Source of the DNA: Candidatus Krumholzibacteriia bacterium
GTDB lineage: Bacteria > Krumholzibacteriota > Krumholzibacteriia > JAJRXK01
Length of the DNA stretch: 64,000 nt
Direction: 5' to 3'
NCBI GenBank assembly: GCA_029932915.1
Contig: JAOZPE010000003.1
Location: 1 to 64,000, forward strand
Part shown: in pieces, positions 14,587-38,886 of the stretch
How positions within the stretch are numbered: position 1 is the first letter of the stretch
Layout: each line of letters begins with the position of its first letter
Program-made: the position numbers and the translations under genes
Notes under the pieces: generated by a model
The model's input: only the letters and a program-made list of their open reading frames with translations
What the model was told of the DNA's origin: nothing
Databases searched by the model: none

Positions 14587-16362
14587 TCAGGCCGCGTAGC
14601 GCTTGCGGATCTCGAGCAGGCGGCTCTCGCTGTCCAGGAAGGCCCGCACCACACCCGGATCGAAATGGCGGCCGCTCGACTTGAGGATGTACTCGCGCGC
14701 CACCTCGTGGCTGTAGGCTTCCTTGTAACAGCGCTTGGAGGTCAAGGCGTCGTACACGTCCGCCAGTCCGACGATGCGGGCGGGTACGGGAATGGCCTCA
14801 CCGGCGAGTCCATGCGGATAGCCCTTGCCGTCCCACTTCTCATGATGGTGATAGGCGATCTCCGTCCCCATCTTCAGCAGGCTGAGGTTCTCGATCCGCA
14901 ACTCGGCCTGTTTCAGGGTGTCCCCACCGATGATGGTGTGGGTCTTCATGATCTCGAATTCATCGTGGGTGAGGCGGCCCTTCTTCTGGAGGATCGCGTC
15001 GGGGATGCCCACCTTCCCGATGTCGTGCAGGGCGGCCGAGCGGTAGAGGTCGTCGAGATAGGCGTCCGTGAGGAAGTGCTTGAAGCGGGGATGGCTGCGG
15101 AGGGCCTCGGCGATGGTCCACGTGTATCCGCAGATGCGTTCGAGATGGCCGCCGGTGTCATCGTCACGGCTCTCGGCCAGCCGCGCCAGCGCGAAGACCA
15201 GGACGTCGCGGCTGTCGGCGACCTTGCGGAACAGGCTGAGCCGCTCGCTGGCCAGACTGAGCTGGTTCACCAGCGTGGTGCAGAGCTTGATGTCCTCGTC
15301 GTTGAATGCCTCCCTCCGCACCGACGCCGCGCTGAAGACACCCACCGGATGTCCACCGACGACGATGGGGATGTCCAGCTCGCTGCGGACGTCCCGGTGG
15401 CCCTCGACATAGCGCGGATCGCGGTGCACGTCGGGCACACTCACCACACGATTCTCCAGGAAGGCATGGGAGGTCAGGCCCTTCTCCCGGTCCAGGGGAA
15501 TGCCGAGCTGGTGGAGCTCGGTGGAATAGCCCGCGCTGTGCCGCAGCACCAGACGGCGCTGCTCCTCGTCGTAGAGGAAGACCGCACAGTATTCATAGCC
15601 CAGGATCGTCGACGCCGCGTCGACTGCCCGCTCGTAGAGGTTCTCCTCGGTGACCATCAATTCGAGGCTGGCGTTGAACTGGTGCAACGCGGCCAGTTTC
15701 TTCACCAGGCGGGCATGGGAATCGATGGACGGCGCCGGATGGGTGGAAGATCGATCGGAGCTGTCCTCGAAGATGACGAAACCGCCGTGCAACTGTCCTT
15801 CCACCCCGGTCACCGGCAGTGCGGTCACGTGGATCTCCCTCCCCGCAGGAGGGAGGGTCACGTGTTCCTGCACCGCCTGTCCCGTTCGCAGACAGCGGCG
15901 GATGGGTTCGAACTCGGAGAGTTCGGGCAGGGCCAGACCTTCGCGCAGATCGAGCTCGAACTCGTCGTTGGCACGGTAGTAGAGGAGCTGCTCTCCGCTG
16001 AACACGGCGAACTGCAGGTGCGGAGCCATCGCACCCAGCACCGGACACAGGTCCACCAGATGATCACAGGGATTGCCGCCGGGGTGGCGATGGAGATAGC
16101 GCGCCACGCAGTTCTCCACCACCTCCTGGTATTCGGAGCCATCGAGGATCGATGTCTCCATCGACAGGAAGGAAGAACCCGTCCCTGTCGGCTTCGCCGA
16201 AGCGAATGAGCTCCCATGGCCGACGGAGGAATCCGTCGGCGTCGCTTCACTCGTCGTTGGGGGCGGGCCGCCCACATTCACCGTTGTCAAACTTCCACTC
16301 CCCGTAGAGGGCGCCGTCTCCAGAGGGACAGTGAAGAGAAGGCAAATCCCATGCCTTCGCAT
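14587..16362 (-). CDS. GAF and HD-GYP domain protein, likely c-di-GMP phosphodiesterase
   Basis: Probably degrades cyclic di-GMP in response to a signal sensed by its N-terminal domains. Residues about 75-215 form a PAS/GAF-like region and 225-385 a clearer GAF domain (YEYCAVFLYDEEQRRLVLRHSAGY). Residues about 395-580 are a complete HD-GYP domain: AALHDIGKVGIPDAIL, MKTHTIIGG, AYHHHEKWDGKGYPHGL and LADVYDALTSKRCY, so all canonical metal ligands are present. The first 67 residues are Ser/Thr/Gly/Pro-rich and may not be translated; METSILDG at 16161 is an alternative start but also lacks a clear ribosome-binding site. It lies downstream of selB with 81 bases between. Confidence 0.87.
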   Translation of the reverse strand: MRRHGICLLFTVPLETAPSTGSGSLTTVNVGGPPPTTSEATPTDSSVGHGSSFASAKPTGTGSSFLSMETSILDGSEYQEVVENCVARYLHRHPGGNPCDHLVDLCPVLGAMAPHLQFAVFSGEQLLYYRANDEFELDLREGLALPELSEFEPIRRCLRTGQAVQEHVTLPPAGREIHVTALPVTGVEGQLHGGFVIFEDSSDRSSTHPAPSIDSHARLVKKLAALHQFNASLELMVTEENLYERAVDAASTILGYEYCAVFLYDEEQRRLVLRHSAGYSTELHQLGIPLDREKGLTSHAFLENRVVSVPDVHRDPRYVEGHRDVRSELDIPIVVGGHPVGVFSAASVRREAFNDEDIKLCTTLVNQLSLASERLSLFRKVADSRDVLVFALARLAESRDDDTGGHLERICGYTWTIAEALRSHPRFKHFLTDAYLDDLYRSAALHDIGKVGIPDAILQKKGRLTHDEFEIMKTHTIIGGDTLKQAELRIENLSLLKMGTEIAYHHHEKWDGKGYPHGLAGEAIPVPARIVGLADVYDALTSKRCYKEAYSHEVAREYILKSSGRHFDPGVVRAFLDSESRLLEIRKRYAA

Positions 16363-16443: not shown

Positions 16444-18345
16444 TCAGGGCCGCGGGCACGCGGGGCCGCGGGTGCGTCCTTTTCCGTCGAACCGGGTGAT
16501 ATCCTGCGAATCGAGCCATTCAAGAAGCGGAACGACGAACTTGCGCGACCCGCCGGTCCACTCCTTCATCTGGACCACCTCCAGGCGCTCCTCGCTCTGG
16601 AAGTGCTGGGCCACCCGGGCGATCCACGCATCGAGCCGGCGGCGGGACACCAGCAGCCGGCCCTGGAGCCGGACCACGCTTCCCTCCTTCAGCAGCAGGA
16701 CCATCTGCGGCGACTTCAACTCGCGCTCGTCGGCCTCGTACATCACCTCGGCCGCTTCCACCTTCCGGCGCAAGGCGTCGAGCTCGCGGCGGGTGGCCTC
16801 GTCGATGGACAGCTCCTTCTGGTCGGCCCGCACCCGATCGGCGGCCACGAAGAGGGGCATCGAACGCTGCCAGGTCTCCAGGAGCTGGCTGAAGGCGCCC
16901 GAGCCGCCGGTGAATCCCAGGGCGCTGCGCAGCTCCTCCTTCTGCATCCCCGGCGACAGGGGTTGGCGACCCTGGTGCTCCCGCAGCAGATCGAGCGCAC
17001 GGCGGCCCGTCGCCTCGGCGACCGCCGCGTCCACCACCCGTTCGCCCAGGGCCAGCAGGCGGCCCTCGGCCACCGCCTCCTCCACCACCGCCGCGGCCTC
17101 CGAGGGGGATCGACCGACCATGCCCAGGTCGGCTTCCACCCGCACGCGCTCGCGGCCGCTGCATCCGGCTTCTTCCACCCGCAGGAACACCCACTCCCGG
17201 CTTCCTCCCTCGCGCAGGCGTTGCAGGCGCCGCAGCGCGTCGGCCCTCCTCTGGCGGGCCGGCGCGAAGGGATCGAGCACGACACCGCCGGCGATGGTGA
17301 CCATCGGTGAGTACGAGCGCAGCACCAGTCGGTCGCCGACGGTGGGAACCAGGGCCTCCTCCAGGTGCAGGCGAGCCAGCATGACGCCGCCGGAGGTGAG
17401 CTGCTGACCCTCGAGCAGATCGACCCGGCCGAGCACCTCGCGGGCCGCGTGGTGCACGTGGACGCGGGCGCGTTGTCGGATGGGATGAGCCAGCGATTCC
17501 ACCGCGCTGAGCACCAGACCGATCCGCAGCGAACTCTCCCAACCCGCTCCGGAGACGAGCACGTCGCCCCGTTGCAGTTCGTCCTTCTTCACCCCGTGCA
17601 GGGCCAGGGCCACCCTCTCACCGGCGCCGGCGAGGGGGACACTCTGGTCGTGGCTCTGCACCTCGCGCACCCGCAGCCGGCAGTCCTGCGGCAAGAGCCG
17701 CAGGTGCTCGCCGCGTCGGACCTGTCCGCTCCAGGCAGTACCGGTCACGACCACTCCGGCCCCACTCAGGGTGAAGACCCGATCGAGCGGCAGGCGGAAA
17801 TCGCCGTCCCGCGAGCGCACCGGCGTGTGGCGGGCCAGCGCGGTCAAGGCCGCCTTGAGATCGTCCAGGCCCTCGCCGCTCACCGCGCTCACCGGAAGGA
17901 CGGGAGCCCCCTCCAGGAAGCTGCCCCTCACCAGCTCGGCGACCTCGGCCTGCACCACTTCCACCAGCTCCGGATCGACCAGATCGATCTTGGTGATGAC
18001 GACCAGTCCGTCCTCGACCCCCAGCAGGCGCAACACGTCGAAGTGTTCGACGGTCTGGGGCATCACGCCCTCGTCGGCCGCCACCAGGAGCAGCGCCAGG
18101 TCCATCCCCCCCGCTCCGGCCACCATCTGCCGCACGAAGCGCTCGTGACCGGGCACGTCGACGATCCCCAGGCGCAGATCGTCGGCCAGGTCGAGATGGG
18201 CGAAGCCCAGCTCGATGGAGATGCCGCGCCGGTGTTCCTCCTCCAGGCGATCGGTGTCCTTGCCGGTCAGCGCGCGCACCAGCGCGGTCTTGCCGTGATC
18301 GACGTGACCGGCCGTGCCCAGGATGAAGGTACGGGGTGAAGCCAT
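16444..18345 (-). CDS. selB: selenocysteine-specific elongation factor
   Basis: GTPase that delivers Sec-tRNA to UGA codons with a SECIS element. The 633-residue protein has an EF-Tu-like G domain ([42 protein letters not shown]) with the [13 protein letters not shown] switch typical of SelB. Two beta-barrel domains follow ([19 protein letters not shown]), then a C-terminal winged-helix region of about 250 residues that in SelB binds SECIS RNA. Its presence implies that the genome encodes selenoproteins; selA, selC and selD are not in this window. It starts 21 bases after murA and is likely in the rpmE-murA operon. Confidence 0.95.
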
Positions 18346-28158: not shown

Positions 28159-30186
28159 TCAGAGCAGTTGCTGGGGATCGACATCCAAGGTGATCTCCAC
28201 CTTCCGCGAGGACCCGTGGCGGTGTGCGGTCTCCTCGAGCAGTCCGGTGACGGCGGCCTTCCCCCCGGCGCTGAGGCTTCCCTTGAGCAGGATCTGGCCC
28301 CGCCAGCGGCGCTGCAGACGCGGAAGAGCGGCGCGCGCCGGCCCGAGGATCTCCACTCCGCTGCCGCGCAACAGCCGGCGCAGACCAGCGGCGAGATCGC
28401 CCAGCACTTCGTCCAGGAGCGCCTCGCTGGAGGCGGCGGCCAGGACCGCGCTGAGGCGGCGGAAAGGTGGATACCGGAGCTGCCGGCGCTGCTCGAGTTC
28501 CTCGTCGAGGAAACCCAGGACGTCGTGATGCACCACCCGGCGGAGGACCCGGTGCTCGGGGTCGTGCGACTGGAGGATGACCCTTCCCGGCGAGACCCTT
28601 CCACTGCGTCCGGCCACCTGGATCAACAACTGGAAGGCCCGCTCGTGCGCCCTCAGGTCGGGGAAGTGCAGTCCCGCATCGGCCGAGATCACCCCCACCA
28701 CCGTCACCCGGGGGAAATGCAGCCCCTTGGCCACCATCTGCGTGCCCAGGAGGATGTCGGCCTCACCCCGGCCGAAGCGCTCGAGCAGCCGATGGTGGGA
28801 ACGCTTCGTCGTGGTGGTGTCATGGTCCAGGCGCAGGATCCGCGCCTGCGGGAAACGGCTGGTCAGGGCCAGTTCCACCCGCTGCGTCCCGATGCCCCGC
28901 GGTCGCAGCACCTTCTCCCCGCACTCGCTGCAGATCCGGGGCCTGGGCATGTGGAAGCCGCAGTAGTGGCAGCGCAACTGGTCACCCGCCAGATGCCAGA
29001 TCAGGGAGATGTCGCAGTGGGGACAGGTCTCCACGTGTCCGCAGGCGTGACACTGGAGGAAACGGGCGTAACCCCGCCGGTTGTGGAAGACGATGACCTG
29101 CTCGTCGCGGCCGAGAGCCTCCTCGATGGCCTCCTCCAGGGGCGGACTGAGGATCTGCAGACCCGAGCCCACCCGTTCGCGCAGGTCGACGATCTCGACG
29201 CGGGGCAGCTCGTCGGCTCCGATGCGGGTGGGGAGCGTGAGCAGCTCGAACTTCCCCTCGCGCGCGTTGTGGTAGCTCTCCAGGCTCGGGGTGGCCGAAC
29301 CCAGGATCACCGGGATGCCCTCCCTCCTTCCCCGCATGAGTGCCACGTCGCGGGCGTGGTAGCGGGGCCGCGCATCGGACTTGTAGCTGGGGTCGTGTTC
29401 CTCGTCGACGACGATCAGTCCCAGCTGCTTCATCGGCAAGAAGACCGCACTGCGCGGTCCCACCACGATGGGAAGCCGCCCTTCGGCCGCCGCCTCCCAC
29501 ACCGCGCAGCGTTCCCCCTGGCTGAGCCGGCTGTGGTAGGGCGCCACCCGGCCGGGGAAACGCCGTTGCAGACGCTGGAGGGTCTGCGGCGTCAAGGAGA
29601 TCTCCGGAAGCAGGACCAGGGCGCTGCGGCCCTGCTCGAGGACGTGCGCGATGGCCTGCAGATACACCTCGGTCTTCCCGCTGCCGGTGACCCCGTGCAG
29701 GAGGAATCCGACGTGCCGCTGCTCGGAGAGGACCGCATCGATCCGCGCCAGGGCCTTCTCCTGGTCCGGCAAGAGGATCTGCGGATCGCTCGGCGGTTCC
29801 TCGTCGCCGTCCCACGGCCGACGGCGCGCGCGGGTTCCCGGGCGCGGCGGCAGCAGCAGGGCCACAGCCTCTCCCAGCGAGCAGGCGTAGTAGGCAGCGA
29901 CCCAGCGGGCGAGTTCCAGGGCGGTGGGATCGAGGCGATAGGGAGCGGGCAGGAGCTCGGCGATCTCCTTGAGACCCTTCACATCGGGAACCCGGTCTCC
30001 GATCCCGGTGACCACGCCGATGCGCTCGCGGCGGCCGAAGGGCACACGGACGACCGCACCCACCTGGAGCGTCTCGGCCCATTGCGCCCCCACCCGGTAG
30101 CTGAAGGTGCGGGGCACGGGAACGCCCAGAGCCACCTCGCAGTACAGGGGCCGGGTCTCGGCAGCGCTCCCATTCTCCTGGCTCAT
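28159..30186 (-). CDS. priA: primosomal protein N' (replication restart helicase)
   Basis: Recognises abandoned replication forks and reloads the replicative helicase. From the ATG at 30186 the protein is 675 residues: a 3'-DNA-binding domain (CEVALGVPVPRTFSYRV), helicase motifs LLHGVTGSGKTEVYLQ, LLPEISLT, VVDEEHDPSYKS, LGSATPSLES and GTQMVAKGLHFP. A zinc region carries CHACGHVETCPHCD, CHYCGF and CSECG, giving eight cysteines. The track's first 12 residues are upstream of this ATG. No ribosome-binding site is visible; a TATACT element ends 6 bases before the ATG, predicting a leaderless transcript as for mlaE. Confidence 0.96.
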   Translation of the reverse strand: MSQENGSAAETRPLYCEVALGVPVPRTFSYRVGAQWAETLQVGAVVRVPFGRRERIGVVTGIGDRVPDVKGLKEIAELLPAPYRLDPTALELARWVAAYYACSLGEAVALLLPPRPGTRARRRPWDGDEEPPSDPQILLPDQEKALARIDAVLSEQRHVGFLLHGVTGSGKTEVYLQAIAHVLEQGRSALVLLPEISLTPQTLQRLQRRFPGRVAPYHSRLSQGERCAVWEAAAEGRLPIVVGPRSAVFLPMKQLGLIVVDEEHDPSYKSDARPRYHARDVALMRGRREGIPVILGSATPSLESYHNAREGKFELLTLPTRIGADELPRVEIVDLRERVGSGLQILSPPLEEAIEEALGRDEQVIVFHNRRGYARFLQCHACGHVETCPHCDISLIWHLAGDQLRCHYCGFHMPRPRICSECGEKVLRPRGIGTQRVELALTSRFPQARILRLDHDTTTTKRSHHRLLERFGRGEADILLGTQMVAKGLHFPRVTVVGVISADAGLHFPDLRAHERAFQLLIQVAGRSGRVSPGRVILQSHDPEHRVLRRVVHHDVLGFLDEELEQRRQLRYPPFRRLSAVLAAASSEALLDEVLGDLAAGLRRLLRGSGVEILGPARAALPRLQRRWRGQILLKGSLSAGGKAAVTGLLEETAHRHGSSRKVEITLDVDPQQLL

Positions 30187-30192
30187 GCCGGC

Positions 30193-30198
30193 AGTATA
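30193..30198 (-). promoter_or_regulatory. -10 element of priA, predicted leaderless
   Basis: TATACT followed by GCCGGC and then the priA ATG. The -35 region is weak (TGTCGG at 17 bases). The layout equals that of mlaE. Confidence 0.5.
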
Positions 30199-30253
30199 GG
30201 CCAGGGGCAGCCGGGCCGACATGCCCGAGTCGCCTCCGGCTCGCCGGCCGGCC

Positions 30254-30634
30254 TCAGACCTGGCGGGCGGGATCCAGGAACGAGCGGACGACCTCGGCCA
30301 GCTTGTTCGGACTGAAGGGCTTGGTCAGGTAGGCGTCGCACTTGACCTCTTCGCCCCGCCGGCGGTCGGCCTCCTTGTCCCGGGCGGTGAGCAGGATCAC
30401 CGGGATGTGCCGGGTCTCCTCCTTGGCCTTCACCGCCCGGCACACCTCGAAGCCGTCGAGCTTGGGCATCATCACGTCCAGGACGATGAGGTCGGGCACC
30501 TGGGACAGGGCCTTCTGCAGGGCCTGTTCCCCGTCGGCCGCAGTGATCACCTCGAAGCCCTCGCTCTCGAGGGCGAAGTCCAGGATGTTGCGGATGTACA
30601 GCTCGTCGTCGACGACCAGGATCTTCGCGTTCAT
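30254..30634 (-). CDS. single-domain response regulator (receiver only)
   Basis: A 126-residue receiver with no output domain, likely a phosphotransfer intermediate or protein-protein switch. It shows the acidic pair in ILVVDDE, phospho-acceptor Asp53 in LIVLDVMMPKLDG, the Thr of ILLTARD and the Lys of YLTKPF. The ATG at 30634 overlaps the upstream kinase stop (ATGA), and the track's 53 extra residues are out-of-frame kinase sequence. It is the last of five signalling genes read as one unit and is the natural partner of the kinase it is coupled to. Confidence 0.93.
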   Translation of the reverse strand: MNAKILVVDDELYIRNILDFALESEGFEVITAADGEQALQKALSQVPDLIVLDVMMPKLDGFEVCRAVKAKEETRHIPVILLTARDKEADRRRGEEVKCDAYLTKPFSPNKLAEVVRSFLDPARQV

Positions 30635-33084
30635 GAATCGTCCTCCATGGGCGGGGAAGTCACGGCTTCCACCGCGATGAGATCTTCCTCCCGGGAGGGG
30701 AGGGAAGACCGGATGGGGGGAAGTTTGCCGTTGCGAGGCCACTGCGGCCCGCTCTCGTGTCTGCCGGGCCCGTTCTCCTCCTGCCAGCGGCACAGGTAGA
30801 CCAGTTCGTCCCTCCGCGAGCGGACCTCCTCGAGGAAGAGAGCTCCCAGACGGGGACAGAAACGGCGTCCCAGCGCCTCCTCCACCAGGGCGATGGCCTC
30901 ATCGACGTCGATCGGCGGACGGGCCGGCCGGCCGTGCAGCATGGCCGCGAAGCAATCGACCAGACGGATGATCCGCGCCGAGGGCGGAATCGACTCGCCG
31001 GCGAGCCCGTCGGGATAACCGCTGCCGTCCCAGTTCTCGTGGTGATGGGCCAGGGCGGACTGGACGCGCCGATCCTCCTCCAGCACGCTGCTGAGGTCGG
31101 CGCCGCGCAGGGCATGTTCCTCGAGGCGGCGGCGCTGACCGGCCCCGAGCGGCTCGGTCCGTCCCAGGAACTCGTCTCCCAGCGTGGACAATCCCAGGTC
31201 GTAGACCCGCAGGGCGTAGGAGAGGGCGCGCAGTTCCTTCTCGTCGGCTCCGTCGCGACGGGCGGTGGCCAGACCGCAGCGGACGATGGCCTCGCGCAGG
31301 GGCGTGCGGCGCTGGTGGTTCACGTCGACCACCGCGCGCAGGGCCTCGCGGGCCTTGGAGACCGTCTGGTGACTCTTCTGGAAGGTGAGGTAGTGGGCGA
31401 AGGCGACGGAGATGCGCTCGGCCAGTGACTCGAGCAGCAGGCGGTCGTCATCGTCGAAGACCTCGCCCGCGCTCTTGTTGTTGACGTTCAACACCCCCAC
31501 GACCTTCCCCTCGAGTCTCAGGGGCGTGCTGAGCACGCTGTAGCCGTCGTACTGCTCTTCGTTCAGTTGGACCGGGAAGCGGCGGTCCTCGCGCAGATCG
31601 CGGATCAACACCGTCTCTCCGCTCTCGTAGACCCGTCCGGCCACCCCCTGGCCCACCTCCACCCGCGTCCGACGGACGACCTCCTCGCTCAGACCCACCG
31701 CCGCCTGCACGCGCAGGCATGCGTCCTTCTCGTCGTAGGTCATGATCGAGGCGATCCCGCACGACATCAGTTCGCAGGCCGCCGCCACCGACAGATCGAG
31801 GAGTTCGAGCAACTCGCCCCTGGCCCCCCGCTGGACACCGTGGGTCATCTCCGAGCGCAGGACCGCGCGTTGGCGAGGCAGACGCACCCGGAAGAGCGCG
31901 CCTCCCTGATCGGGGCGTTCGACCCAGATCCTGCCCTCGTGCTCTTCGACGATCCGGCGGCAGACCGACAGACCGAGACCCTGCCCCCCGTGGACCCGTG
32001 TCGTCGAACCGTCCACCTGGTAGAAGCGTTCGAAGATCCGCGTACTCTCGCTCTCGGGGATTCCCTCTCCGCTGTCCTCCACCCGCAGCTCCACTTCCCC
32101 CTCGTCCTCGACCACCGCCGCCACGACCCTGCCGCCTTCCGGGGAGAACTTCACCGCGTTGTCCATGAGTTCCTGGACCACCAGGGCGATGCCCTCCCTC
32201 TCGCCTTCCATCAGGACCGGCTGTCCGGGCAGATCGAGAACGGCCTGGATGTGTTTCTCCTCGAGAATGGGAGTCAGGCGGAGATGGACCTCGCGGACCA
32301 CCTCGCGCAGATCGAAGCGCAGGCGGCGGGTGGACGACGGCGGCGCATGATCTCCCCGGGCGATGGCCAGCAGGTCCTCCACCCGGTCGTTCAGACGGCG
32401 GCTCTCCTCGAGGATGACGTGAAGGAAGCGCTTGCTGAGCCCCTCATCCATCTCACCCTCTTGACTCAGCAATCCTTCACAGTAGGCCTGGATGGAAGTC
32501 AGGGGTGTGCGCAACTCGTGGCTCACCCCGTCCAGGAATGCCTGTTGCCGGGTCTCCAGATCGTCGATGCGGCTGTGGGCGGTGGAGAGCTCCCGGCTCG
32601 CTTCGGCCAGCTCCTCCCTCTCCACCATCGCCTCCAGCAGGAGCGCCGACATCTCGGCCAGACGGTCGCCCCAGCGCAGACGGTCGTGATCGATGCTCCC
32701 ACTCGAAGGGTTGCGCAGTTCCACGAGGCCCAGCAGTTCCTGCTCGCTCGTCAGGAGGGGAACGTACAGGCGCGGCCGGCCGCCCTCGGCCTCCTCGTCG
32801 AGATAGCACCACCCCACCCGGTGGCACGCCTCCAGCAGCTCCTCCACCCCCGGCAGATCCAGATCCCAGGAATGCAGTTCCTCGAGTTCCGCTCCGGCCA
32901 TACCGGTGGTGGCCCACAGCACGAAGCGGTCGTCCTCGGGGCTTCTCAGACGCAGCAGCCCGGCGTCGAAACCGAGGACCTCGCAGAAGACACCGGTGAT
33001 GCGGGCAGTGAGTTCGGTCTGATCACGACAGCGGAGGAATGCGGTCGTCGATCGGAACAAGCGATCCAATTCCTCCGAAGTCAT
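30631..33084 (-). CDS. histidine kinase fused to GAF and altered HD-GYP domain
   Basis: An 817-residue soluble protein with no membrane helix. In order: GAF-like domain (about 10-155), short coiled coil, HisKA with His189 in FLDGVSHELRTPLTS, HATPase (VQELMDNAVKFSPEGG, VEDSGEGIP, GGQGLGLSVC), a second GAF (about 435-585, QGVAGRVYESGETVLIRD), and an HD-GYP-like domain (about 610-770). In the last, the HD motif reads VYDLGLS (His replaced by Tyr), HALRGA and HHENWDGSGYPDG are kept, and the late DxxDAL reads VDCFAAM. Loss of a metal ligand argues against normal phosphodiesterase activity, so it may bind c-di-GMP or a partner instead. It is paralogous to the 1011-residue kinase two genes upstream. 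Confidence 0.88.
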   Translation of the reverse strand: MTSEELDRLFRSTTAFLRCRDQTELTARITGVFCEVLGFDAGLLRLRSPEDDRFVLWATTGMAGAELEELHSWDLDLPGVEELLEACHRVGWCYLDEEAEGGRPRLYVPLLTSEQELLGLVELRNPSSGSIDHDRLRWGDRLAEMSALLLEAMVEREELAEASRELSTAHSRIDDLETRQQAFLDGVSHELRTPLTSIQAYCEGLLSQEGEMDEGLSKRFLHVILEESRRLNDRVEDLLAIARGDHAPPSSTRRLRFDLREVVREVHLRLTPILEEKHIQAVLDLPGQPVLMEGEREGIALVVQELMDNAVKFSPEGGRVVAAVVEDEGEVELRVEDSGEGIPESESTRIFERFYQVDGSTTRVHGGQGLGLSVCRRIVEEHEGRIWVERPDQGGALFRVRLPRQRAVLRSEMTHGVQRGARGELLELLDLSVAAACELMSCGIASIMTYDEKDACLRVQAAVGLSEEVVRRTRVEVGQGVAGRVYESGETVLIRDLREDRRFPVQLNEEQYDGYSVLSTPLRLEGKVVGVLNVNNKSAGEVFDDDDRLLLESLAERISVAFAHYLTFQKSHQTVSKAREALRAVVDVNHQRRTPLREAIVRCGLATARRDGADEKELRALSYALRVYDLGLSTLGDEFLGRTEPLGAGQRRRLEEHALRGADLSSVLEEDRRVQSALAHHHENWDGSGYPDGLAGESIPPSARIIRLVDCFAAMLHGRPARPPIDVDEAIALVEEALGRRFCPRLGALFLEEVRSRRDELVYLCRWQEENGPGRHESGPQWPRNGKLPPIRSSLPSREEDLIAVEAVTSPPMEDDS

Positions 33085-33087
33085 GGT

Positions 33088-33471
33088 CTAGCTCACTCCA
33101 CGAGGCGTCAGCATGCTTCCCACCCGTTCCAGCAAGGCGGAGATCTGGAAGGGTTTCTTCACGAAGAAATCGGCTCCGGCCTCGAGCGCCGCCACCCGGT
33201 CGACGGGCCGTGACTTTGCGGTGACCGCGATGATGATCAGGTCGCGGTGGGCCTCGTTGGCCCGCAGCAGACGAATGGTCTCCAATCCGTCGAGCTTGGG
33301 CATCATCAGATCCATGAGCACGACATCCGGCCGGAAGGTCGAGATCTTGTTCATGCACTCGACGCCGTCCTCGGCGCGCGCGACGATGTAGCCCTCGTTC
33401 TGGAACGAGAAGCTCAAGATCCGAGCCAGCGAGAGCTCGTCTTCTACGATAAGGACGCGGGGCGTAGCCAT
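33088..33471 (-). CDS. single-domain response regulator (receiver only)
   Basis: A 127-residue receiver: VLIVEDE, phospho-acceptor Asp54 in VVLMDLMMPKLDG, IAVTAK and FFVKKPF. There is no DNA-binding or enzymatic output. The ATG at 33471 is preceded by AAGGAACAGGA and lies 28 bases inside the 3' end of the large kinase gene. The track's longer start adds 9 residues. It sits between the two kinase-HD-GYP genes and could receive phosphate from either. The order kinase, receiver, kinase, receiver suggests two duplicated kinase-receiver pairs. Confidence 0.92.
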   Translation of the reverse strand: MATPRVLIVEDELSLARILSFSFQNEGYIVARAEDGVECMNKISTFRPDVVLMDLMMPKLDGLETIRLLRANEAHRDLIIIAVTAKSRPVDRVAALEAGADFFVKKPFQISALLERVGSMLTPRGVS

Positions 33472-36400
33472 TGATCCTGTTCCTTCAAGCGTGACCATTC
33501 GTCGGGTTGCAGCTCGCCGTTCTCGGCGAGGACATCGATGAAGAGCCGCAGCACCTCGGCGTCGAACTGGGTGCCCGCGTTCGCCACCAGTTCGGCGGCG
33601 GCTTCCGAGGAGCTCATCAGCGTGCGGTAGGCGCGTGGAGAGGTCATGGCGTCGTAGGCGTCGACGATGGACACGATCCTCGCCGGCAGCGGAATGTGCT
33701 CGCCGGACAGACCGTAGGGGTATCCCTTGCCATCCACCCTTTCGTGGTGATACCGGATGACCTCGTCGAGTTCATCCGCGCTCAGGAAGGGTTCGAGCAT
33801 CTCCACCCCCATCGTGGGGTGCGACTTGACCATCTCGAACTCCTCCTGCTTCAGCGGGCCCTTCCGCTTGAGGATCTCGTGATTGAGACGGGTCATCCCG
33901 ACATCGTGGATCACGAAGGCGTACTGCAGGGCCAGCACCTGTTGGCGGGTCAACCCCAGTCTGCGCCCCAGTTCCATGGCGTAGCGAACCGCGCGCGAGG
34001 AAGAACGGACCTCCGAGGAGTGCAACTCCACCAGCGACTGCAGGGCATCGACGGTCCGGTCGAGGTTCTCCTTGCTGTTCTCGAAGGCCAGGGCCTTGGA
34101 CAGGGCGTAGGTGACCTTCTCGGTGAGGGTGATGAGCAGGCTCAGATCGTCGGCATAGAAGGGCTCACCGGTCACCTTGTTGTTGCAGTTGACCACTCCG
34201 ATGACCTCGCCGTCCATGAACAGCGGAACGCTCACCAGTGAATTGGTCTCGTACTGATCCTTGTGGTCGCTCGGATGGAGTCCCTCCGCGTCCTCGACGT
34301 TCTCGATGAGGAGTGGACGGCCGGTCGCCGCGACCCGGCCGGCGATGCCCGACCCGACCTTCACCCGCGCATCCTTCACCACCGACTCGTCGAGTCCATA
34401 GGCCAGTTGGATGAAGAGCTCGTCGCGGTCCTTGGACATCAACATCACCGAGACGATCTTGCAATCCATGTAGTCGGCCACCATCTGCACCAACAGGCGC
34501 ATCAGGCGGGAGAACTCCTGGGTGCGGGTGACATCGCCCAGCACTGTCTCCGGATGCACGTTGAGGTGCTGTTCCTTGGGAATGGAGAAGGAGAAGGCCG
34601 CACCCCTGCCCTGTCCTCCCTTGACGTCGACCTTGCCCCCGTGGGCCTCGACGATGTTCTTGACGATGGTCAGGCCCAGCCCGGTTCCCTCCGTGCGTTC
34701 CACCCCGTCGCCGTAGTCGCGTACCCGGTAGAACTGGCGGAAGATGTTGCTGACCTCCTCCTCGGGAATGCCCGGTCCCTCGTCCTCCACCGTCATGTCC
34801 ACCGTGGTCGCCTTCTCCACCGCAGAGACGGTGATCGTCCCGCCCTCGGGGCTGAACTTCAGCGCGTTGCTCATCAGATTGAGAAGGACCTGTTTCATCA
34901 TGTCCTTGTCGACCTCGATGCGCGGGATGTTGTCGGCGAGGAAGGTGTCCACCTTCACCCTCTTGCGCTCGAGTTCGGGACGGAGGGTCGCCACCACGTC
35001 GTTCACCAGGTCGAGGATGCTGCAGTGGACGCGATTCAGTTCGTGCTGGTTGAACTCGATCTTCGAGTAGTCCAGGATCCGGTTGACCATGCGCAACAGG
35101 CGGTCGGCCTCTGAACGGATCACCTGCAGGAAGTCGCGGCGCTCGGGGAACTCCGGCTGATCGACCGCCAGCAGGAGAGCGTCGGTGTAGGCGCCGATAC
35201 TGGTCAGGGGTGTCTTCAGTTCGTGGCTGGCCATGCTCACGAACTCGGCCTGCATCCGGTTCAGACGAGCCAGGTTCTCGTTCTCGTCGTGCAGGGCGGT
35301 GATCTCCCCGCGCATACGGGAGAGACGCGATTCGGCCACCAGCAGCGGCTTCAACTGCGAGGCCAGGTGCAGCAGGTGCAGCACGACGTCGTTGCGCCGC
35401 TGGACGGGATGCTCCAGACCCACCAGCAACACCACCACCGCCTTGCCGTTCTGGCTCACCGGGGTGGCCAGGTAGATGTCGGCCTCGTTGAAGTTGACGA
35501 AGAGACCGTCGTTCTGGAGCAGGGTGAACGGCCCTTCCCACAGGTCGCCGGTCTCGCCATAGCGCAGGTTGCGGAAGAAGTTGCTGCGCTCGGTCTCGAA
35601 CTCGATCCAGGTGGGGATGACCTGGCGGCGGGTGATGCTCACCACGCGGTGCGGGGTCAGCCCCTCGTGCCAGCCGCTTCCCGGCCGGCCGCCGACGGTG
35701 TCCTCGCCGGCGGGGAAGACCACCGCCGCCGCGAAGCACACGCTGGGATTGGTGGTGAGGTTCTGGACGACCTCCTCGAGCAGATCCTCCGGGCCCACCG
35801 CCTCGACCTCCTCCAGCCGCAGATCCTGGACGTCCCCCATGCGCAGACTCTGGATCCGAAAACGTCCCTCCTGGAATCCGTCGCGGAAGAAGGCGAAGTT
35901 GGGCCGGAAACGATGAAGGGTGAAGACGATGAGCGAGAGCACCGCAGCCATCATCAGGGAGATGCCGATGGCGACGTTGAGGTCGCGGAAGAGGATGTCG
36001 ACCTCGGCCGGGTAGACCGCGAAGTGGGGAATGCTCCCTGCGTTCTCCAGCCCCCACATGCTCAGGAAGCCCAGGACCGCGACGGCAACGACGATGTAGC
36101 TCACCCGGGCTTCGTTGGTGACCGCGGTGCTGATGATCACCGGCAAAGCGAGAAGGAAGAGGAAGGGACTGCTGGCCATGCCGGTGAAGTAGATCACCAG
36201 CAGGGTGGTGAACACGTCGGCCGCGAGCCACGAGTACAGGAGCAAACGGGTTCCGTCGACACCGCGCTCGACGAGCAGATGGCGGCGGCCGGCGTGCCAG
36301 AACATGAAGTTCCACACCAGACCGAGGGTGAAGACCACGGCCACCGGACGGGGATCGAAATGGATGTAGCTGAGCTCCCGGGCGAAGAAGACGATCATCG

Positions 36401-36479
36401 CCATGATCGACAACTCGACCCAGCGCACGTGGCGCACCAGGTACCGGAAACTCGAGTAACTCTGCCTGAGGGTCGTCAT
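33444..36479 (-). CDS. membrane histidine kinase fused to GAF and HD-GYP domains
   Basis: A 1011-residue inner-membrane sensor. The first 195 residues hold about six hydrophobic helices. A GAF-like region follows (about 225-375), a coiled coil, HisKA with FVSMASHELKTPLTSIGAY, and HATPase (QVLLNLMSNALKFSPEGG, EDEGPGIPEEE, EGTGLGLTIVKNIV). Then comes a GAF domain (VGSGIAGRVAATGRPLLIENV) and an HD-GYP domain with FVIHDVGMTRLNHEIL, MVKSHPTMGVEML, IRYHHERVDGKGYPYGL and IVDAYDAMTSPRAYR. Metal ligands are kept, but the usual Lys after HDxG is Met. A kinase core and a c-di-GMP phosphodiesterase module in one chain is uncommon. It begins 33 bases after the receiver-GGDEF gene. Confidence 0.9.
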   Translation of the reverse strand: MTTLRQSYSSFRYLVRHVRWVELSIMAMIVFFARELSYIHFDPRPVAVVFTLGLVWNFMFWHAGRRHLLVERGVDGTRLLLYSWLAADVFTTLLVIYFTGMASSPFLFLLALPVIISTAVTNEARVSYIVVAVAVLGFLSMWGLENAGSIPHFAVYPAEVDILFRDLNVAIGISLMMAAVLSLIVFTLHRFRPNFAFFRDGFQEGRFRIQSLRMGDVQDLRLEEVEAVGPEDLLEEVVQNLTTNPSVCFAAAVVFPAGEDTVGGRPGSGWHEGLTPHRVVSITRRQVIPTWIEFETERSNFFRNLRYGETGDLWEGPFTLLQNDGLFVNFNEADIYLATPVSQNGKAVVVLLVGLEHPVQRRNDVVLHLLHLASQLKPLLVAESRLSRMRGEITALHDENENLARLNRMQAEFVSMASHELKTPLTSIGAYTDALLLAVDQPEFPERRDFLQVIRSEADRLLRMVNRILDYSKIEFNQHELNRVHCSILDLVNDVVATLRPELERKRVKVDTFLADNIPRIEVDKDMMKQVLLNLMSNALKFSPEGGTITVSAVEKATTVDMTVEDEGPGIPEEEVSNIFRQFYRVRDYGDGVERTEGTGLGLTIVKNIVEAHGGKVDVKGGQGRGAAFSFSIPKEQHLNVHPETVLGDVTRTQEFSRLMRLLVQMVADYMDCKIVSVMLMSKDRDELFIQLAYGLDESVVKDARVKVGSGIAGRVAATGRPLLIENVEDAEGLHPSDHKDQYETNSLVSVPLFMDGEVIGVVNCNNKVTGEPFYADDLSLLITLTEKVTYALSKALAFENSKENLDRTVDALQSLVELHSSEVRSSSRAVRYAMELGRRLGLTRQQVLALQYAFVIHDVGMTRLNHEILKRKGPLKQEEFEMVKSHPTMGVEMLEPFLSADELDEVIRYHHERVDGKGYPYGLSGEHIPLPARIVSIVDAYDAMTSPRAYRTLMSSSEAAAELVANAGTQFDAEVLRLFIDVLAENGELQPDEWSRLKEQDQWLRPASLS

Positions 36480-36512
36480 GCCGTGGTCACTTCCTCACGT
36501 CCGACTGCGGGA

Positions 36513-37490
36513 TCACACGTTCTTCTGCCCGATGGTCTCCACCGGAGCGGCGCCATCGCTCTGATGACTCCGCCTCTCCTTCACCACCACACTTCCCTTG
36601 AGTGACTTGCCGTATTTCTTGAGCTCGGCGGCGACGTCGCTCACCTTCGCCCAGTGTTGGAATGCCCCGCCCGGATCGGTGATCATGGCCAGGGTCAGCG
36701 TGCAGAACGGCACCATGTTGGTGCCCCCGAAACGGTTGCGGACCTCCAGATAGCCCTTCTCCTGGTCCTCGGCGTCGAAGAGCATGCTGCTGGTGGCATC
36801 GAAGTCGTCGACGATGGCCTGGGCGACGGCGTCACCCACCTCCGGCGAGGTGATCACCACGAAGTCGTCGCCGCCGATGTGGCCGATGAAACTCTGTTCA
36901 CCACCCAGACGAAGCGTGGTCTGGCGAATGATGTCGCTGACGAAACGGATGGCCTGGTCGCCGCGCGAGTAGCCGTAGTAGTCGTTGTAGCCCTTGAAGT
37001 TGTCGATATCGACGTACATGAACGAGAAGGGGATCTTCTCCTGGATGCGCCGCTGCAGCTCGGCCTCGATCGCCTGGTTGCCCGGAAGTCCGGTCAGGGG
37101 ATTCGCCTGGCGTTGGGCACGGCTCCAGTCGAGCATGTTGCGCACCCGTGCGATGAGTTCGGCGTGGTCGTAGGGCTTGGTCAGGTAGTCGTTGGCCCCT
37201 CCCTTGAGGCCGCGCACCTTCTCGCTGATGTTGCCCTTGGCGGTGACGATGATGATCGGGATCTGCGCGGTCTGGAAGTCCTCCCGCAGGTGCTGGCACA
37301 CCTGATAGCCGTCCATCTTGGGCATCATCAGATCCAGCAGGATGAGATCGGGCAGATGGGCGTGGGCCTGCGTGAGCGCAGCCTCGCCATCCTCGGCGGT
37401 CACCACCTCGAAGCCGTTCTGCTCGAGCAGAAAGGCCAGGATCTTTCGGATATGGGGCTCGTCATCGACGACGAGAATCGTTTCTTTCAC
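36513..37490 (-). CDS. response regulator with GGDEF-type domain (GGDDF)
   Basis: A 325-residue protein: receiver at 1-120 (phospho-acceptor Asp53 in LILLDLMMPKMDG, TAK, TKPY), then a GGDEF-family domain from about 128. This has NPLTGLPGNQAIE, the metal-binding DIDNFKGYNDYYG (161-173) and GHIGGDDFVVI (signature at 206-210). The signature is GGDDF instead of GGDEF/GGEEF and the upstream RxxD inhibitory-site Arg is absent, so diguanylate cyclase activity is possible but not assured. The start is GTG at 37490, which overlaps the stop of a small upstream ORF as GTGA. It is first of the five main genes and would supply or sense c-di-GMP for the HD-GYP proteins downstream. Confidence 0.9.
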   Translation of the reverse strand: MKETILVVDDEPHIRKILAFLLEQNGFEVVTAEDGEAALTQAHAHLPDLILLDLMMPKMDGYQVCQHLREDFQTAQIPIIIVTAKGNISEKVRGLKGGANDYLTKPYDHAELIARVRNMLDWSRAQRQANPLTGLPGNQAIEAELQRRIQEKIPFSFMYVDIDNFKGYNDYYGYSRGDQAIRFVSDIIRQTTLRLGGEQSFIGHIGGDDFVVITSPEVGDAVAQAIVDDFDATSSMLFDAEDQEKGYLEVRNRFGGTNMVPFCTLTLAMITDPGGAFQHWAKVSDVAAELKKYGKSLKGSVVVKERRSHQSDGAAPVETIGQKNV

Positions 37491-37600
37491 GATCGACCTC
37501 TCTCGATGTCGTGCAGGATGTCACGCGCCCCGGCGAGAGGCAGCGACACCCGGCTCCAGCCCGGGCCGCCCATTGGACCTCGTAAGGTGTTGTCAGACAA
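37487..37600 (-). CDS. small ORF coupled to the receiver-GGDEF gene
   Basis: A candidate 37-residue peptide beginning at TTG with GGAGG 7 bases upstream and ending in a GTGA overlap with the next gene's start. The sequence (ending LAGARDILHDIERGRS) matches no family I recognise. The first dozen codons include rare ones (TCT, TTA, CGA); the later part has the high GC third positions of genuine genes here. A longer reading to 37711 (74 residues) lacks a ribosome-binding site. It may be a leader peptide for translational control rather than a functional protein. Confidence 0.35.
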   Translation of the reverse strand: MSDNTLRGPMGGPGWSRVSLPLAGARDILHDIERGRS

Positions 37601-37694
37601 TGACATACCTCCAAGCAAGGATGTCCCGGCCGCGGCCGGAGCGCCGCTGACGCCATCGGGATGGCCCGATCCGACCACGATTCCCCTGCTGACT

Positions 37695-37710
37695 TGCAGA
37701 ATGCTTGCCA
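37695..37710 (-). promoter_or_regulatory. possible sigma54 (-24/-12) promoter of the signalling cluster
   Basis: On the minus strand TGGCAA, 5 bases, CTGCA matches the consensus TGGCAC-5-TTGCA at 9 of 11 positions with exact GG/GC spacing. It would give a leader of about 195 bases before the receiver-GGDEF gene. No sigma70-like pair was found in this gap. Confidence 0.4.
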
Positions 37711-37746
37711 TCTGGAAGGCAGCGGATCGGATCCGGAGCGTCGAGA

Positions 37747-37763
37747 CCCGCCGGGGAGGCGGG
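37747..37763 (-). terminator. possible tsaD terminator hairpin
   Basis: CCCGCC, a 5-base loop and GGCGGG, about 105 bases beyond the tsaD stop. There is no T-run. Confidence 0.3.
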
Positions 37764-37869
37764 AATCCCCCATCGGAACGAGAGGAAAGCCCACGGAAAG
37801 CAGGAGAGGGAGCCCGCGGGAGGGTTGCGCCGCGGAGGGGGAGAAGGGTCGAGGGCGAAGCGGGGCCGC

Positions 37870-38886
37870 TCAGCTCCAGCTCGAGAGGGGGCGCCGGGCG
37901 AAGGCCCCCAACTGCAGGGAGTCCCTCTGACCGGCGAGCAGGCGATGCCGGCCCGCCCAGGCGATCATCGCCGCGTTGTCGGTGCAGTAGGCGGGCGGAG
38001 GCGGGGTGAACACGAGCCGCCGGGCGGCGGCCAGGCTCTCGAAGGCATCCCGCAGCGCCGCATTGCGGGCCACGCCACCGGCCAGATAGAGACCCCGCAC
38101 CCGGCCGGCGCCCAGCGCATCCAGCGCCGCGGCGGTCTTCAGGACGAGGCTCTCGATCACCGCGTCCTGCAGGGCACGGGCGAGGTCGGCCCGGTCCGCC
38201 TCGGACACCTCATCGCCCATCGCCTCCAGCCGCAGACGCACCGCGGTCTTCAGCCCGCTGAAGGAGAAGTCGAGCTCCCCGCGGCGGCGCAGACCCACCG
38301 GCAGGGAGATCGCCCCCGCTCTTCCGCCGGCGGCCAGTTTCTCGATGAGCGGACCGCCCGGATAGCCCAGCCCCATGAGCTTGGCCGCCTTGTCCAGGGT
38401 CTCGCCGGCGGCGTCGTCCCGGGTCTTGCCGAGGACCCGGTAGCGCCCCGGCGCCTCCATCCAGACCGTCTGGGTGTGACCCCCGCTGACCACCAGCACC
38501 AGGGCGGGCAGGGTCATGGGACGCTCGATGTCGTTGGCCAGGATGTGGCCCTCGATGTGATGCACGCCCACGAAGGGCAGACGGCGGGCCCAGGCCACGG
38601 ACTTCGCGCAACTCAGGCCCATCAGGACCGCGCCGATGAGGCCGGGACCGGCAGTGGCTGCCACCGCCTCGACCTCGTCGAGGGTCCAGCCGGCCTCCTC
38701 CAGGGCCGCGCTGAGCACGGGCAGGATGTTGCTCAGATGGGCACGCGAGGCCAGCTCGGGGACGACGCCCCCGAAGTGCCGGTGCAGGTCCACCTGCGAG
38801 CTGATGAGATTGCTGCGCACGCCGCCGTCGTCCACGCAGGCGACGGCGGTCTCGTCGCACGAGCTCTCGATGCCCAACACCCTCAA
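37870..38886 (-). CDS. tsaD: tRNA N6-adenosine threonylcarbamoyltransferase
   Basis: Transfers the threonylcarbamoyl group to A37 of tRNAs reading ANN codons, with TsaB and TsaE. The 338-residue protein starts LRVLGIESSCDETAVACVDDG, has the metal-binding VGVHHIEGHILAN, the ATP-binding VVSGGHTQTV, and the C-terminal YLAGGVARNAALR and CTDNAAMIAWAG. The start is TTG at 38886, with AGGAG 8 bases upstream and a TTGA overlap with the nnrD stop. The track merges it with out-of-frame nnrD sequence into an 881-residue ORF, which is wrong. It is the second gene of an nnrD-tsaD pair. Confidence 0.96.
   Translation of the reverse strand: MRVLGIESSCDETAVACVDDGGVRSNLISSQVDLHRHFGGVVPELASRAHLSNILPVLSAALEEAGWTLDEVEAVAATAGPGLIGAVLMGLSCAKSVAWARRLPFVGVHHIEGHILANDIERPMTLPALVLVVSGGHTQTVWMEAPGRYRVLGKTRDDAAGETLDKAAKLMGLGYPGGPLIEKLAAGGRAGAISLPVGLRRRGELDFSFSGLKTAVRLRLEAMGDEVSEADRADLARALQDAVIESLVLKTAAALDALGAGRVRGLYLAGGVARNAALRDAFESLAAARRLVFTPPPPAYCTDNAAMIAWAGRHRLLAGQRDSLQLGAFARRPLSSWS

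Follow-up and report, generated by a model that had tools for sequence, protein, structure and literature searches.

A class-wide two-component module of Candidatus Krumholzibacteriia whose paired histidine kinases carry half-conserved GAF-HD-GYP domains, putative ligand receptors

We analyzed a stretch of 64,000 nucleotides (nt) from a Candidatus Krumholzibacteriia bacterium (GenBank assembly GCA_029932915.1, contig JAOZPE010000003.1, positions 1 to 64,000 of the forward strand; hereafter the window), in which five two-component signaling genes form a compact cluster. Read on the minus strand from position 37490 to position 30254, the cluster consists of a receiver protein with a GGDDF motif (Rec-GGDDF), a membrane histidine kinase (HK1), a stand-alone receiver (RecA), a soluble histidine kinase (HK2) and a second stand-alone receiver (RecB), and it is followed by priA. 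Both kinases end in a GAF-HD-GYP part, the function of which is the subject of this analysis. The features are as follows.

36513-37490, minus strand: Rec-GGDDF, 325 amino acids; PF00072 at residues 5-117 and PF00990 at residues 131-224.
33444-36479, minus strand: HK1, membrane histidine kinase with a C-terminal GAF-HD-GYP part, 1011 amino acids; assigned by Pfam, hydropathy and phylum-wide orthologues.
33552-34043, minus strand: HD-GYP domain of HK1; HDVGM replaces HDxGK, and the GYP side is intact.
33088-33498, minus strand: RecA, stand-alone receiver (PF00072), overlapping the 3' end of HK1.
30631-33084, minus strand: HK2, soluble histidine kinase with an N-terminal GAF-like domain and a C-terminal GAF-HD-GYP part, 817 amino acids; assigned by Pfam.
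30856-31323, minus strand: HD-GYP domain of HK2; YDLGL replaces HDxGK, and the GYP side is intact.
30254-30634, minus strand: RecB, stand-alone receiver, always beside priA; assigned by PF00072 and position.
28159-30222, minus strand: priA, the downstream landmark (TIGR00595 and synteny), not considered part of the system.

The junctions within the cluster are tight. A gap of 33 nt separates Rec-GGDDF from HK1, HK1 and RecA overlap by 55 nt (28 nt when RecA starts at its second Met), RecA and HK2 are 3 nt apart, and HK2 and RecB overlap by 4 nt; the spacing from RecB to priA is 31 nt. For RecB the listed open reading frame is 30254-30793, with the ATG at 30634 as the start of the receiver. Since all the junctions are short gaps or overlaps, co-transcription of the five genes is likely. 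A previous sequence-only reading of this DNA had described the five genes as running in one direction, overlapping or at most 33 nt apart, and had noted a complete kinase core N-terminal to GAF-HD-GYP in the same chain, twice. The open reading frames and the Pfam domains bore out the former description, and the Pfam domains the latter.

In HK1, Pfam places HisKA at residues 410-475, HATPase_c at 524-636, GAF at 655-793 and HD_5 at 813-976, and the hydropathy profile shows hydrophobic segments at about residues 79-187. In HK2, the corresponding domains lie at residues 180-246, 296-405, 425-562 and 588-743; no membrane segment was found in this protein, and a weak N-terminal GAF domain is located at 20-150. 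The H boxes read SHELKTP in HK1 (H419 of its own sequence) and SHELRTP in HK2 (H189 of its own sequence). The H-box His and the N-box Asn are present in every HK1 and HK2 scored, the G-box glycines are invariant across 12 HK1, and the HATPase_c domain (PF02518) scores E-values of 6e-28 in HK1 and 3e-29 in HK2. By their sequence motifs, HK1 and HK2 are therefore HisKA-type histidine kinases. No PF00072 receiver was found in either chain, and they are thus not hybrid histidine kinases. The HD-GYP profile (PF13487) scores E-values of 6e-34 in HK1 and 8e-26 in HK2, both over the curated cut-off. Two AlphaFold predictions from a four-sequence alignment were of low confidence, with a mean predicted local distance difference test score (pLDDT) of 62.8 and 52.2.

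The cluster was compared across a phylum sample of 80 genomes, all of one class (Candidatus Krumholzibacteriia). In the 40 other genomes with a contig spanning the locus, as seen from genes matching the window proteins, Rec-GGDDF is the first gene and RecB is the last before priA without exception (40/40); the same gene order as in the window is found, for example, in the metagenome-assembled genome Candidatus Krumholzibacteriia MAG L078 (JAGLCY010000079.1). The interior of the locus is more variable. Both HK1 and HK2 are present in 29 of these 40 genomes, one HD-GYP kinase in nine, and none in two, which belong to family f2. RecA lies between the two kinases in families f1 and f5, and is absent from families f3, f6 and f7, and from f8 as far as the contig reaches. 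In f3, f6, f7 and f8, a small soluble kinase of about 276 amino acids is found between Rec-GGDDF and HK1 (for example L045:10368-11198 and L051:11398-12240). Family f2 (L173, L175) has a second copy of Rec-GGDDF away from priA, with two kinases and a RecB-like receiver ahead of it. The defining domains of the module score E-values of about 1e-15 to 1e-34; together with the recurrence of the gene order in 40 other genomes, this places the module far beyond chance. The module is real, conserved and lineage-specific, and it looks like the result of vertical inheritance with lineage-specific swaps of parts, not like a one-off cluster.

The origin of the two kinases was analyzed on the basis of domain trees. 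A GAF-HD-GYP tree was calculated with a comparison set of PmGH (the GAF-HD-GYP protein of Persephonella marina), further HD-GYPs encoded in this genome and similar GAF-HD-GYPs from other sources. The row own_L004 of this tree repeats own_L001 and is given no weight. A single clade (100/99) unites HK1 and HK2 with the single kinases of family f4, and it is divided into an HK2 subclade (100/99) and a subclade of HK1 with f4 (97/99). Since one clade splits into two phylum-wide paralogue clades, a single duplication, older than the radiation of the class, gave rise to the GAF-HD-GYP halves. In the tree of the kinase cores, from which HK2_L041, the f2 kinase and all the small kinases were excluded because they had no matching H-box pattern, each paralogue is again a clade (98/100 with f4; 98/95), and their sisterhood was neither shown nor rejected (approximately unbiased test, p 0.44). 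RecA, RecB and the GGDDF receivers each cluster separately in the receiver tree. The sequence-only reading had seen duplicated kinase-receiver pairs in the gene order; the duplication holds for the GAF-HD-GYP halves and may or may not extend to whole kinase-receiver pairs.

The HD-GYP domains themselves depart from those of active enzymes, a point on which the sequence-only reading had made no remark. Active enzymes carry HDxGK, whereas HK1 reads HDVGM and HK2 reads YD (VYDLGL). We scored the active-site residues, in PmGH numbering, over 33 HK1 and 36 HK2 (69 sequences). K225 and D183, putative catalytic residues, are each lost in 69/69; every HK1 (33/33) has Met at the K225 position, and the HK2 have Leu, Met or Ile there (36/36). 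H189 is lost in 68/69, and D308 in 29/33 HK1 and 36/36 HK2. H221 is kept in 33/33 HK1 and is replaced by Tyr in 35/36 HK2; L066:5753-8497 is the only HK2 of the 36 with His at this position. On the other side of the site, D222, H250, H276, H277, G284, P286 and D305 are invariant in 69/69, and Y285 is kept in 64/69. D183, E185 and H189 have column entropies that lie at, above or close to the median of the domain, and the GYP side is enriched for conservation (p of about 3e-9 for HK2 and 1e-7 for HK1). In the alignment, therefore, the GYP side has stayed frozen while the HD side has drifted. The idea that the HD-GYP domains are simply decaying was rejected on the ground that the GYP-side half is invariant.

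In PmGH, an alanine at H189, H221, K225 or D183 essentially abolishes hydrolysis of cyclic di-GMP (c-di-GMP), and unhydrolysed c-di-GMP was captured in a subunit with the GYP-side iron only (PMC4159591). Since residues essential in PmGH are replaced class-wide, a receptor role fits HK1 and HK2 better than turnover. The reading that we prefer, and to which we give about an even chance on the basis of conservation patterns and analogy, is that the five genes constitute a class-wide two-component module in which the GAF-HD-GYP parts of HK1 and HK2 are putative ligand receptors, likeliest for c-di-GMP, that would tune the kinases and would not act as phosphodiesterases. c-di-GMP signaling probably exists in this organism, because its genome encodes one PilZ protein along with two GGDEF proteins of high score. 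Of the five further HD-GYPs in the genome, four are canonical with HDxGK, and the organism thus keeps likely phosphodiesterases.

Several observations weigh against this reading. Two f2 genomes have no HD-GYP kinase at the locus and yet keep Rec-GGDDF and the receivers, and the HD-GYP part is therefore not essential to the module. The activity of the GGDDF motif is uncertain. HK1 keeps the HD dyad, with H221, D222 and D305 each present in 33/33, and RpfG is active though it is without E185 and H189. For loss of hydrolysis, the weight of the argument therefore falls on K225 and D183 for both paralogues and on H221 for HK2. Finally, not all copies may bind c-di-GMP, because the guanine-contacting R314 is lost in 15/36 HK2 (Gly in 14 and Ser in one, in families f3 and f7; for example L048:1461-4652) and Y285 is changed to His or Phe in 5/33 HK1.

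The intact dyad of HK1 and the example of RpfG favor the proposal of the sequence-only reading that autophosphorylation gates c-di-GMP turnover in cis, that is, that the HD-GYP domains, in HK1 at least, are active phosphodiesterases controlled by their own kinase core. K225 is nevertheless Met in every HK1 and D183 is never Asp, and either mutation killed the activity of PmGH; in HK2, H221 is lost as well in all but one sequence. By contrast, HDxGK is kept in the canonical HD-GYPs that this genome encodes and in those of the readable outside relatives. In view of the HD-side losses, cis-gated hydrolysis was rejected as the leading model, and we consider it quite unlikely.

The changes at R314 bear on another explanation, in which the kinases are tuned in the same manner, but what the half-pockets sense is a different nucleotide (cyclic GMP-AMP (cGAMP), pGpG, GTP or a like compound) or a metal. 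In addition to R314 in HK2, K317 is Arg in all HK1, and some HD-GYP relatives, V-cGAP3 for example, have cGAMP as their substrate (molecule name of 5z7c). The loss of R314 may indicate that the ligand changed during the history of the HK2 clade, with HK2 of f3 and f7 binding another one. This explanation has to account for a GGDEF-family gene at the first position of the operon, for the absence of the Hypr signature of cGAMP synthesis in Rec-GGDDF, and for the lack of any Rfam riboswitch match in the window. For the module as a whole, we regard it as unlikely.

Rec-GGDDF was examined in 47 orthologues. The GGDDF motif, which departs from the [G/A/S]G[D/E]E[F/Y] consensus, is present in 46/47. 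Of the residues for GTP and metal binding (PleD numbering), D327, N335 and D344 are found in 47/47, K442 is Lys in 45/47 and Arg in 2/47, and R446 is Lys in 47/47; no I-site was found in these orthologues. Synthesis of cGAMP by Rec-GGDDF was rejected, since the diagnostic D344 site is Asp and not Ser in 47/47. As one GGDDF protein, GSU1937, is active and another, PA3258, apparently is not (PMC8835794), diguanylate cyclase activity of Rec-GGDDF is plausible but unproven. The phospho-acceptor Asp and the conserved Lys are kept in 47/47 Rec-GGDDF, 25/25 RecA and 47/47 RecB, and all three predicted receivers are thus complete, with intact phosphorylation sites. The sequence-only reading had also mentioned motility and envelope targets; none was found or excluded for this module.

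The constant adjacency of Rec-GGDDF raises a further explanation, namely that the HD-GYP domains bind no nucleotide and serve for protein contact or dimerisation, and so regulate a different c-di-GMP enzyme, such as Rec-GGDDF. There is a precedent in Shewanella HnoD, a degenerate HD-GYP protein without phosphodiesterase activity that suppresses HnoB by direct contact (PMC6335343), and a similar proposal was made for NosR (PMC12570481). The invariance of five metal ligands and the GYP motif across the phylum would, however, be unexpected for a pure scaffold, and we find this explanation very doubtful.

If HK1 and HK2 are receptors as we prefer, the following mechanism could be envisaged. A ligand would sit in the conserved GYP-side half-pocket of HK1 or HK2 and would alter how the dimeric GAF-HD-GYP stalk is packed, and this change might shift each enzyme between its kinase and phosphatase states. 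Phosphate would then be passed to RecA, RecB and Rec-GGDDF, the last being a probable output of cyclase or cyclase-like type, so that a feedback loop between the c-di-GMP level and phosphorylation could be formed. In this scheme we infer the identity of the ligand, the allosteric coupling, the phosphotransfer partners and the feedback through GGDDF. A bolder form of the scheme, which we consider rather unlikely, is that HK1 and HK2 are an obligate pair with complementary half-sites (HD..M and YD..L/M), possibly a heterodimer; the pair would read c-di-GMP at two levels of sensitivity and set how far the shared receivers, its own GGDDF cyclase included, are phosphorylated, in a closed feedback circuit retained phylum-wide.

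Should the receptor reading be correct, the flow of information would be the reverse of that first assumed, with c-di-GMP controlling phosphorylation. HD-GYP domains are usually annotated as c-di-GMP phosphodiesterases, and our analysis suggests that such automatic annotation is wrong for these proteins in this phylum. A deeply conserved, vertically inherited pair fused to intact kinases leads to the prediction of binding without cutting and of kinase control, and the orthologues offer a natural series for sorting HD-GYP residues into those for binding and those for catalysis.

The region upstream of the module contains tsaD and an nnr (YjeF) gene. Its features are as follows.

37870-38880, minus strand: tsaD, the upstream landmark (PF00814 and synteny).
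37491-37869, minus strand: gap of 379 nt from tsaD to Rec-GGDDF, a candidate promoter region.

The gap is likely to be the promoter region of the module. A promoter scan found no consensus sigma-70 site and no promoter-like site in these 379 nt, and the same scan found two weak terminator-like stems there. Rfam and tRNA scans of the window gave no matches. Elsewhere in the window, a canonical GAF-HD-GYP gene (14587-16362, minus strand; HDIGK, all ligands) adjoins a gene for a SelB-like selenocysteine elongation factor (16444-18345). On contig G000:C69, L004:1423-3426 (minus strand) encodes a GAF-HD-GYP protein of 667 amino acids without a kinase and with the same half-site pattern (D183S, H189S, H221R and K225M, with D222, H250, the HH pair and GYP kept). 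It adjoins a canonical Rec-GAF-HD-GYP gene (L001/L004, HDIGK), and the arrangement suggests a second sensor-enzyme pair.

Kinase-HD-GYP fusions may stand in domain databases. The sequence-only reading had called the cluster a candidate new system and had suggested a search for its architecture and neighboring receivers across genomes. That search recovered the module order in 40/40 genomes of the class and a comparable single chain in none of the 588 genomes of five other phyla (HK1 as query, E <=1e-55), a threshold and a genome sampling that leave room for unrelated fusions elsewhere. The only outside match spanning both parts, in genome G315 of another phylum (L180:5058-8183), is two adjacent genes with stops between them, a kinase gene followed directly by a separate HD-GYP gene; the other outside matches cover GAF-HD-GYP only. 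It is possible that the L180 pair is an unfused counterpart of the fusion. In the open-access literature, we came across neither an account of an HK-GAF-HD-GYP fusion nor a paper on Krumholzibacteria and c-di-GMP together. The claim of novelty therefore stands in so far as no system of this make-up was found described, and it is weakened by precedents, SgmT and DvhD, for the principle.

Among proteins of known structure, the best relative is PmGH (PDB 4MCW, 4MDZ and 4ME4; PMC4159591), with E-values of 1.7e-34 for HK1 and 1e-29 for HK2. The GAF-HD-GYP order and the GYP-side ligands are identical; PmGH, however, has no kinase, possesses all eight metal ligands together with D183 and K225, and hydrolyses c-di-GMP. 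SgmT, a hybrid kinase of Myxococcus xanthus (PMC3509222), resembles HK1 and HK2 in its GAF input and in a C-terminal c-di-GMP-metabolism domain turned receptor, which is proven in that case. The domain of SgmT is a degenerate GGDEF and its receiver is internal, whereas here GAF-HD-GYP is the candidate receptor and each receiver has a gene of its own. DvhD, a PAS-HD-GYP protein of Desulfovibrio vulgaris (PDB 9RBZ and 9RC0; PMC13090378), is a non-hydrolytic HD-GYP to which a sequence match was found, and it is a proven c-di-GMP receptor in which the packing of the stalk alters on binding to the degenerate HD-GYP and a signal is relayed along it. It has SQ in place of HD, has lost the HH pair, binds without metal and lacks a kinase, whereas HK1 and HK2 keep HH, D222, H250 and D305. 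The HnoK/HnoS-HnoB-HnoC-HnoD network of Shewanella (PMC6335343) is likewise a single c-di-GMP network in which a degenerate HD-GYP occurs together with two kinases and several receivers, although HnoD is a response regulator and the HD-GYP domains here are fused to the kinases. Rec-GGDDF shares with GSU1937 of Geobacter (PMC8835794), which is catalytically active, the GGDDF variant of GGDEF; GSU1937 has the Hypr Ser and a membrane N-terminus, in contrast to the Asp and the receiver of Rec-GGDDF. The module is, in this comparison, a lineage-specific variant of known two-component and c-di-GMP architecture.

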